The notes beneath the pieces were generated by a model. The model did no database searches. It had not been told where the DNA came from and saw nothing but the letters and a program-made list of their open reading frames with translations. From contig NZ_CP058215.1 in assembly GCF_013388255.1 (NCBI RefSeq), positions 2,161,332 to 2,225,331 of the forward strand: a stretch of DNA of 64,000 bases, read 5' to 3'. The position numbers and the translations under genes were made by a program. Source of the stretch: Methanolobus zinderi. GTDB lineage: Archaea; Halobacteriota; Methanosarcinia; Methanosarcinales; Methanosarcinaceae. Positions 17,351 through 19,613 of this stretch are shown here, piece after piece (position 1 is the first letter of the stretch; each line of letters opens with the position of its first letter).

Positions 17351-17824
17351 TTATGACTGGTCCCTGCCACGTCTGACATCAACAGCCGCCCCTCTGTCCA
17401 GATCAGCAACCTCACCCGGAGAGAAAAGCAACTGGCCTGTTGCAAGCAAGTCATCGGATTCGCTTACAACCACCACCTCGTCACCTGCACGAAGTTCAGG
17501 ATCAAGGGACAGGACATGTTTGGCAAAAGTGGTCTTACCATTTGCCACAAAGGGCACCGCATCCTCACAAATAACAACACGCCTTGCAGGTGCAGGGAAA
17601 TAATCATGAAGCGCACGGGCACCTTCCATACCAAGGGTTAGCATACCGTCCTTTGCCCTGACTGTTGCGATGTGCTCATCTTCCTTAAAGACCTGCCGTA
17701 CTCGTTTGGTCTTTGAAAGCCTGAAAGTGACATCATCCGGGAAAAGGGCATTTCCACAGCCTTTTCCAAACTGGAAGTCCGCCATAACACGTACTCTTTT
17801 AAGATTTTTCTCGATATCTGGCAT
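17351..17824 (-). CDS. PUA-domain RNA-binding protein
   Basis: A 157-residue protein with the start set at ATG 17824 (MPDIEKNLKRVRVMADFQFG). The N-terminal QFGKGCGNALFP part resembles the domain preceding PUA in archaeal tRNA-guanine transglycosylase/archaeosine proteins, and residues about 75-150 form a PUA domain (VVICEDAVPFVANGKTTFAKHV, AGDEVVVVS). PUA domains bind structured RNA. TTTAAATA at 17901-17908 (read on the minus strand) may be its TATA box. Function is not known. Confidence 0.85.
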   Translation of the reverse strand: MPDIEKNLKRVRVMADFQFGKGCGNALFPDDVTFRLSKTKRVRQVFKEDEHIATVRAKDGMLTLGMEGARALHDYFPAPARRVVICEDAVPFVANGKTTFAKHVLSLDPELRAGDEVVVVSESDDLLATGQLLFSPGEVADLDRGAAVDVRRGRDQS

Positions 17825-17921
17825 AGATGCTAAATAATGGATAAGCATTAAATTGATAGCGGTCCGTGGGAGAGAATATCCCGGACAGGTACAAAAATCG
17901 TATTTAAAGAATATCGAACAG

Positions 17922-17930
17922 ATTTATATA
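17922..17930 (+). promoter_or_regulatory. TATA box of the candidate structured RNA
   Basis: ATTTATATA is followed 20-25 bp downstream by the first base of a 12-bp terminal stem, which is the spacing expected between an archaeal TATA box and its start site. Both flanking genes are on the other strand, so no protein gene uses it. Confidence 0.5.
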
Positions 17931-17948
17931 TAATAATGACTAATTATA

Positions 17949-18100
17949 AGCTGAGGAAGCGGGCTAACTGCTTGTAGCTGTATTCAAAGGTATAGTAACT
18001 GTAACCAAGCAAAACCATTCATCCCCTCAAACATATCCCGCTTCCTCATTGCTCATTCTTACTGGTTTTAAATTACAGGGACTGCAAAGTCTCTTTTTTT
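17949..18100 (+). ncRNA. Candidate structured small RNA (unnamed)
   Basis: The gene-free 322 bp between the PUA gene and rtcB holds TGAGGAAGCGGG at 17952-17963 and its perfect complement CCCGCTTCCTCA at 18037-18048, a 12-bp stem enclosing about 73 bases. Inside it GCTTG (17970-17974) pairs with CAAGC (18006-18010) and CTGTA (17978-17982) with TATAG (17991-17995). The segment CATCCCCTCA (18020-18029) is predicted unpaired and resembles an anti-Shine-Dalgarno sequence. A TATA box lies 20-25 bp upstream and a hairpin with seven T follows at 18079-18100. The size is about 150 nt, or 100 nt if processed. It is not SRP RNA, RNase P RNA or tRNA. Confidence 0.55.
18079..18100 (+). terminator. Hairpin plus T-run ending the candidate RNA
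   Basis: GGACT, loop GCAA, AGTCT and then a run of seven T. It is oriented on the plus strand, where no protein gene reads toward it, and thus supports a plus-strand transcript from 17949. Confidence 0.5.
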
Positions 18101-18146: not shown

Positions 18147-19613
18147 TTAGCCTTTTATAACTCCCATTGGCAGGAGCCTGGCAACCTTCCTGGCAATACC
18201 AAGATCATGAACTACATCCACTACTTCACTGCTGGATTTATAGACCGCCGGTGCTTCTTCAGCTATCAGCGAGGGTTGTGTGGCCCTGACCTGTATACCC
18301 CTGGAGCTTAACTCATCGCGTATGTCCTCACCACGCAACTCCTTTTTGGCATGTTTGCGACTCATGACACGGCCTGCACCATGACATGCACTGCCAAAGC
18401 TGATCTCCATGGAATCCTTCGTGCTGCACAGCACATAAGAAGGTGTTCCCATACTTCCGGGTATCAGGACTGGCTGGCCCAGATCAAGATAATCTTCGGG
18501 CAGGTCAGGATGGCCCGGCGGGAACGCACGTGTGGCTCCTTTCCTGTGTACGTACACCTCGGTGTTCTTTCCGTCGATCTTATGCTCTTCAAGCTTGGCG
18601 ATATTGTGTGCCACATCATAGACAAGGTCAAGACCAAGATCACAGAAGTCATTTGCAAAGTGGCTCTCGAATATCTCGCGGGCCCAGTGCATGATCACAT
18701 GCCTGTTGACCCACGCATAGTTGGCCGCACACACCATTGCTTTGAAATAATCCTGTGCTTCCTGGGACTGGGCCGGAGCACATGCAAGCTGCCTGTCAGG
18801 GAGGGATATGTTATATTTTTTCGAAGCGCTGGTAAGTATCTGCAAGTGATCGGTACATATCTGGTGACCCGCACCGCGTGAGCCGCAATGTACCATGAAA
18901 GTGACCTGTCCTTCCTTGAGTCCCATGGCAGCAGCAGCCTCTTCATCATATATCTTATCGATATACTGGACCTCAAGGAAATGATTTCCACTTCCCAGGG
19001 TTCCTATCTGAGGTCTTCCGCGTTTGCGGGCCTTTGCACTTACCTTGGACGGATCGGCTCCCGGCATCTGTCCCTTACTCTCACAATGTGCGATATCCGC
19101 TTCTACACCGTAACCGTTTTCCACCGCCCACTGTACACCATGCACGAAGATGTCTTCCAGCTCGGCATCCGTAACCCTGAGCCTGCTCTTGGATCCCACA
19201 CCTGTGGGAATCGCCTTGAAGAGGTCATCCAGCAGTTCTGAGAGCTTCGGACGTACATCCTGCTCGGATAAATTGGATCTTATGAGCCGCACTCCGCAAT
19301 TGATATCAAAACCTACTCCACCTGGACTTATTATGCCGGTCTCCTTATCGAATGCAGCAACACCGCCGATGGAAAAACCATAACCAAGGTGTGCATCCGG
19401 CATGGCCATGGAGTATTTCTGTATCCCCGGCAGGGTGGCTACATTCGCCACCTGCCCGAGAGTTTCCATTTCAAGCATATTAAGAAGCGACTCCGAGACA
19501 AAGATGCGGCCGGGAACGTTCATCCCCGGTTTGAATCCTACGGGCACCTCCCATTCATTATCACTGATACGTTTGAGCACATCGAAGACCGAAGTTTCAT
19601 TCTCATCTGACAT
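18147..19613 (-). CDS. rtcB: tRNA-splicing ligase RtcB
   Basis: RtcB is the GTP- and Mn-dependent ligase that joins 2',3'-cyclic phosphate and 5'-OH ends of tRNA halves. Family motifs: GGVGFDINCGVR with metal-binding Asp and Cys, GTLGSGNHFLE, FMVHCGSRGAGH, KGATRAFPPGHP, and the guanylylated histidine in SACHGAGRVMSR (His411). Length is 488 residues with no intein. The archease gene that activates it lies just upstream on the same strand (156 bp gap). Confidence 0.97.
   Translation of the reverse strand: MSDENETSVFDVLKRISDNEWEVPVGFKPGMNVPGRIFVSESLLNMLEMETLGQVANVATLPGIQKYSMAMPDAHLGYGFSIGGVAAFDKETGIISPGGVGFDINCGVRLIRSNLSEQDVRPKLSELLDDLFKAIPTGVGSKSRLRVTDAELEDIFVHGVQWAVENGYGVEADIAHCESKGQMPGADPSKVSAKARKRGRPQIGTLGSGNHFLEVQYIDKIYDEEAAAAMGLKEGQVTFMVHCGSRGAGHQICTDHLQILTSASKKYNISLPDRQLACAPAQSQEAQDYFKAMVCAANYAWVNRHVIMHWAREIFESHFANDFCDLGLDLVYDVAHNIAKLEEHKIDGKNTEVYVHRKGATRAFPPGHPDLPEDYLDLGQPVLIPGSMGTPSYVLCSTKDSMEISFGSACHGAGRVMSRKHAKKELRGEDIRDELSSRGIQVRATQPSLIAEEAPAVYKSSSEVVDVVHDLGIARKVARLLPMGVIKG

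Follow-up and report, generated by a model that had tools for sequence, protein, structure and literature searches.

The window analyzed here, the whole stretch of 64,000 nucleotides, contains an intergenic segment flanked by two genes on the minus strand, one for a PUA protein (17351-17848) and the other for RtcB (18147-19613). The PUA neighbor is a free-standing TGT_C2+PUA protein that resembles the C-terminus of the archaeosine synthase ArcS, and its gene adjoins rtcB in all genera checked. On the plus strand between them lies a candidate small RNA (sRNA) of 97 nt (17952-18048), bounded by its terminal stem and delimited by the fold z-score and a covariance model. A first-pass annotation had proposed a structured RNA at this site, opposite in strand to both neighbors, and the elements that it described are indeed present. 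The terminal stem is a perfect 12 bp pairing between TGAGGAAGCGGG (17952-17963) and CCCGCTTCCTCA (18037-18048). Folding places two further stems inside it, an inner helix of TGCTTG with CAAGCA (17969-17974 with 18006-18011) and a hairpin, GCTGTATT-CAAA-GGTATAGT (17977-17996), in which 17977-17984 pairs with 17989-17996. The closed terminal stem would create a large loop that keeps CCAUUCAUCCCCUCA single-stranded, and the core of this open segment, CCATTCATCCCCTCA (18015-18029), has a mean unpaired probability of 0.98.

The predicted minimum free energy of the 97-nt RNA is -28.9 kcal/mol, compared with -16.4 ± 2.4 in dinucleotide shuffles (z of -5.16; 0 of 200 as good), and the 171-nt region around it gives a fold z of -3.8. 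Structure on the minus strand of the locus was considered and set aside as weak (z of -1.4). A DNA search returns a strong match to the locus in 26 of 26 other Methanolobus genomes and in several other genera. The covariance search of relatives that the first-pass annotation had called for, carried out with model R1, places the sRNA in 65 of 112 family genomes, all 27 Methanolobus included, with the rtcB/PUA synteny kept; both genes flank the sRNA in nearly all 53 loci inspected, the exceptions being loci that end at contig ends. Eight genera are represented: Methanolobus, Methanococcoides, Methanohalophilus, Methanohalobium, Methanosalsum, Methanomethylovorans, ANME-3, and one more. The model has no match in any genome of g7 or g11, which are large-genome, Methanosarcina-like genera, g7 being Methanosarcina by assumption.

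In alignment A1, 95.9% of cells are paired across the 26 named pairs, whereas controls in which the structure was slid along the alignment pair in only 42-51% of cells. The terminal stem is paired in 96% of cells and 5 of its 12 pairs are altered on both sides, the kind of compensatory change by which the first-pass annotation had wished the stem to be judged. The whole-structure covariation score of 0.145 exceeds all 500 of 500 shuffles (mean 0.110) and all slid controls; related sequences can beat shuffles without any structure, and the less biased measure is the count of doubly changed pairs, which is 7 as compared with 2.9 in shuffles (1 of 500). The TGCTTG/CAAGCA helix is mostly invariant and so contributes little covariation evidence, and the inner hairpin at 17977-17996, with 2 of 8 pairs doubly changed, is altered or absent in several other genera. 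Compensatory changes in the terminal stem and persistence through eight genera strongly support an unannotated gene for a structured RNA with its own promoter.

The TATA box of that promoter, TTTATATATAA (17923-17933, plus strand), begins 29 nt 5' of the terminal stem and is nearly invariant in Methanolobus. A pattern scan of other genera recovers a TATA box in 29 loci, 25 of which have it 29-31 nt before the stem, the remaining 4 matches representing a closer or internal site. Transcription probably starts at or within a few nucleotides of 17952. As described in the main text of a study of Methanolobus psychrophilus R15, 195 intergenic sRNA start sites have promoters 19-22 nt upstream, which fits such a start (PMC5378194). 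The Methanolobus alignment also reveals an upstream block, GTATTTAAAGAATATCGAACAG (17900-17921, plus strand), that may serve as a second TATA-like or BRE-like stretch; within the genus a TATA-like block, TATTTAAAG (TATATAAAG in relatives), is kept ∼22 nt 5' of the sRNA TATA box. The terminator in the first-pass annotation fared less well: the hairpin GGGACT-GCAA-AGTCTC and its run of seven T residues exist in the sequence (18078-18100, plus strand), but they are common to the host and its nearest relative only. The conserved TATA box at a fixed distance and the opposite-strand neighbors argue for an independent transcription unit, distant from the putative target described below. A small protein encoded within the sRNA was also considered and rejected, because the spacing between stem and core does not hold to one frame (mod 3 = 12/11/4) and indels shift the frame. 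In agreement with the earlier failure to recognize a known RNA class, Rfam gives nothing at the gathering threshold for the locus, its loose E-values marking weak low-complexity matches only; over the whole window its sole match is a tRNA-Thr elsewhere. Neither a box C/D nor an H/ACA guide is matched by Rfam, and by eye the 3' end has no ACA and the terminal stem lacks C/D boxes on either side.

Conservation in the sRNA is highest in the open segment, ACTGTAACCAAGCAAAACCATTCATCCCCTCAAAC, and not in the stem; the core of this segment (18015-18029) is invariant in Methanolobus and nearly so across the family. Its reverse complement, TGAGGGGATGAATGG, resembled an mRNA leader, and the host genome (2.7 Mb) was therefore searched for TGAGGGGATRNATGG. 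Apart from the sRNA locus itself, the only exact matches are a tandem pair on the minus strand (C1:2100641-2100655 and C1:2100674-2100688), both within a single gene's leader, which lies ∼60 kb before the window. Chance matches of 15 bases are expected at ∼0.005 per genome of this size (4^-15 x 2 x 2.7 Mb), and sites elsewhere in the host that differ by one mismatch are not recognizable as leaders of the same kind. In G006 and G021, the 11-mer TCTGAGGGGAT occurs twice in the target leader and nowhere else. The same 11-mer is strongly over-represented in G002, a Methanolobus (41 sites), and in G044 (11 sites), an excess that probably comes from a repeat or insertion element. The sRNA locus thus combines an unpaired segment with complementarity to an mRNA leader, as a trans-encoded antisense sRNA should. 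The first-pass annotation had been drawn to a role connected with RtcB and the PUA protein; that functional tie is unsupported, and the open segment instead matches a distant and different mRNA leader.

The gene in question (L118; G000:C1:2099833-2100618, minus strand) encodes a winged-helix protein of ∼262 amino acids, in which a disordered Q-rich linker joins an N-terminal beta-beta-alpha part to a C-terminal winged helix; over the latter, the AlphaFold pLDDT is mostly >90. A fold search identifies a generic winged helix, the best match being a Fur-type domain (Z of 9.1 over 69 residues), with the 40-residue N-terminal part covered only as part of the whole. Pfam matches are weak and below the cutoff (Penicillinase_R, E of 0.0025). 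The divergent gene is, by eye, what we take to be a pan-like AAA ATPase. The 5' leader contains UCUGAGGGGAU, two tandem hairpin loops that bear the complement of the open segment; in the host, a GAGG Shine-Dalgarno sequence follows the second pairing site by ∼10 nt and the ATG by ∼22 nt. Across genomes, hairpins of at least 5 bp present the GAGG loop in 57 of 57 cases for the first and 55 of 55 for the second, through 26 and 27 distinct arm sets, respectively. Methanohalobium has lost the second loop, and its first pairs with its sRNA over 19 nt. Two other readings of the leader were discarded. A kink-turn (CUGA..GAUGA) is incompatible with the GAUAA loop of most Methanolobus first hairpins, which breaks the required C-G pair, and an upstream AUG in hairpin 2 that would start a longer protein is not kept in frame in ANME-3 and Methanosalsum.

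Of the 112 family genomes, 65 contain a homologue of the target and 63 contain both it and the sRNA; the two exceptions in each direction (sRNA without target, target without sRNA) are all incomplete assemblies. This co-occurrence falls mostly within a single clade and counts as evidence from few independent events. Among 61 genomes with both partners, at least one perfect 15 bp site is present in 52 and at least one mismatch-free site in 56. Most Methanolobus genomes carry one uncompensated mismatch at hairpin 1, and in G024 insertions in both sites leave ∼10 bp. The duplex of the full open segment with the leader scores -32.3, versus -18.0 ± 3.0 with shuffled leaders (1 of 1000), and among 2554 window tiles the only ones to outscore it are three over the sRNA's own locus. 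At hairpin 2, a hybridization energy of -27.3 kcal/mol is set against opening costs of 9.2 for the hairpin and 0.1 for the sRNA, giving a net of -18.1 kcal/mol; duplex and opening energies were used because RNAcofold is unable to represent pairing within a closed loop. The two partners also change together. In Methanosalsum natronophilum (G097), the sRNA has CCGUUC and hairpin 2 has GAACGG, as compared with CCAUUC and GAAUGG elsewhere, the full sequences being CCGUUCAUCCCCUCAGA for the sRNA segment and UCUGAGGGGAUGAACGG for hairpin 2. In all, changes on both sides are seen at two positions of the duplex, the first within a single species and the second between families.

Considering the computed conservation of the sRNA, the covariation of its stem, its complementarity to the target and the uniqueness of that match, and the co-conservation of the two partners, we think it probable that 17952-18048 on the plus strand is a stand-alone, trans-acting antisense sRNA that is transcribed and pairs in cells with the leader hairpins of the winged-helix mRNA by its ribosome-binding site. 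Judged from these sequence comparisons, the sRNA probably controls the winged-helix gene by base pairing. In such a mechanism, CCUC of the sRNA would first contact the GAGG loops of the leader, after which the sRNA would invade each hairpin, pairing with the UCUGAGGGGAU loop and 3' arm and displacing the 5' arm. The displaced arms would lie just upstream of the GAGG Shine-Dalgarno sequence, and the resulting duplex beside the ribosome-binding site could lower translation. The effect is likely to be repression, a sign that we draw from sRNA162 and sRNA41 of Methanosarcina mazei (PMC3510493, PMC5867862), with stabilization or activation a serious alternative.

Within the order, 127 of 186 genomes carry a winged-helix homologue, with none found among Methanosarcina-like genera. 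In families f2, f3, and f5 (L243-L262), these genes are preceded by leader hairpins with GAGGGGA loops, even where no partner RNA was found, and the hairpins may constitute an unreported leader motif. At the Rfam gathering threshold, riboswitches included, the target leader, these other leaders, and the ANME-2 elements described below have no match. No matching sRNA was found in f2 or f5, although both families carry the hairpins; a 12-mer search for a partner in nine f2 genomes returned repeats and coding-like matches, with no stem-flanked candidate. These observations suggest that the leader predates, or does not need, the sRNA, and something else, for instance a protein, may read it as well.

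In the ANME-2 family (f3), elements carrying CCAUCCAUCCCCUC occur in one or two places per genome, and the winged-helix leaders carry GAGGGGAUGGAUGG; relative to the pair in Methanosarcinaceae, this element/leader pair differs by a compensating base change. The elements (L093/L094, L263-L280, L311-L314, L326-L329, L341) present the open segment CCATCCATCCCCTCAA, or one close to it, within a terminal stem of their own, GGAATTCGG/CCGAATTCC, which is largely invariant, so that its structure rests on folding and not on covariation. They lie ∼35 to 140 nt before the start codons of genes that, from their sequences, we take to be ribH (lumazine synthase) and a RibD-type reductase. Where the start could be located, the riboflavin genes sampled from Methanolobus, and from other genomes of f1, f2, and f5, have no CCCCTC element upstream. 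We tentatively suggest, with less conviction than we attach to the pairing itself, a portable RNA-RNA circuit in Methanosarcinales, in which a closed-loop RNA module controls the winged-helix mRNA, with its GAGGGGA leader loops, from different seats: a stand-alone gene beside rtcB in Methanosarcinaceae, and, in ANME-2, a position upstream of ribH and the RibD-type gene, from which it might couple the expression of riboflavin genes to the regulator.

The ANME-2 arrangement also bears on explanations that dispense with RNA pairing. Winged-helix DNA-binding proteins commonly autoregulate, the target is itself predicted to be such a protein, and in ANME-2 two riboflavin genes have the motif upstream; TGAGGGGATGRATGG might accordingly be a protein-binding DNA site, perhaps for the winged-helix protein itself, that recurs in the leader and at the sRNA and riboflavin loci. 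Parallel drift of sites within one genome would be expected in that case too, and the matched sRNA and leader changes could track a protein's shifting site. A DNA site, however, has no need of a covarying sRNA terminal stem or of leader hairpins that keep their pairing through 26-27 arm sets, and the motif is non-palindromic, with a uniform sense orientation in the leaders and the opposite one in all sRNA-like elements. We consider this operator quite improbable, and give slightly less credence still to a structured sRNA that acts otherwise, as a protein scaffold or a partner of RtcB or the PUA protein, with an incidental or secondary leader match. The strict rtcB/PUA synteny, the conserved stem and promoter, and the conservation of segments outside the core, such as ACTGTAACCAAGC, would all suit such a role, yet so few chance matches are expected that tandem sites in one leader, kept across eight genera, speak against it, as does the ANME-2 module, which adjoins genes other than rtcB.

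The persistence of leader hairpins in two families that yielded no sRNA (f2 and f5) and the resemblance of the tandem GAGGGGA loops to tandem sites for an RNA-binding protein are what a protein-binding leader would predict; sRNA pairing would then mainly strip the protein or expose a site, resulting in activation. We know of no protein that binds these hairpins, and the constant UC before GAGG is accounted for by pairing with GGA inside the hairpin. This version is unlikely in our estimation, and antisense pairing at the ribosome-binding site remains our preferred reading.

To our knowledge, convincing targets have been established for very few archaeal sRNAs, most of which are restricted to a single genus. 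In the present case, an sRNA and an mRNA leader can be traced jointly across eight genera and carry base changes that match, so the pairing is directly testable by swapped mutations. Methanosarcina acetivorans, a standard genetic host from a genus that apparently has neither part, would be a clean place to rebuild the circuit. If the proposal is true, the ANME-2 setting ties the circuit to flavin supply in anaerobic methane oxidizers.

Outside subscription papers and supplements, we found no paper describing the sRNA or its target. The R15 set comes from the same genus and may already hold this sRNA as an unnamed entry, although the main text of that paper does not mention rtcB and reports neither a target nor a structure for an RNA of this kind (PMC5378194). 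Among characterized archaeal sRNAs, sRNA41 and sRNA154 of M. mazei, which target ACDS and the nif and gln genes, respectively, with sRNA154 also stabilizing mRNAs, are likewise intergenic, use anti-ribosome-binding-site segments, and act in trans (PMC5867862); their targets and distribution differ from those of the Methanolobus sRNA, a separation based on their published descriptions. The M. mazei sRNA162 is 191 nt long, with three stem-loops and a variable linker, and is reported only in Methanosarcina (PMC3510493). It too is an intergenic archaeal sRNA, with an unpaired linker that acts in trans to cover the ribosome-binding site on the mRNA of a regulator (PMC3510493). The Methanolobus sRNA has no match in Methanosarcina-like genera and is not of the same sequence family; unlike sRNA162, it is ∼100 nt long, is closed by one terminal stem, and would direct a near-invariant open segment to a leader of tandem hairpins.
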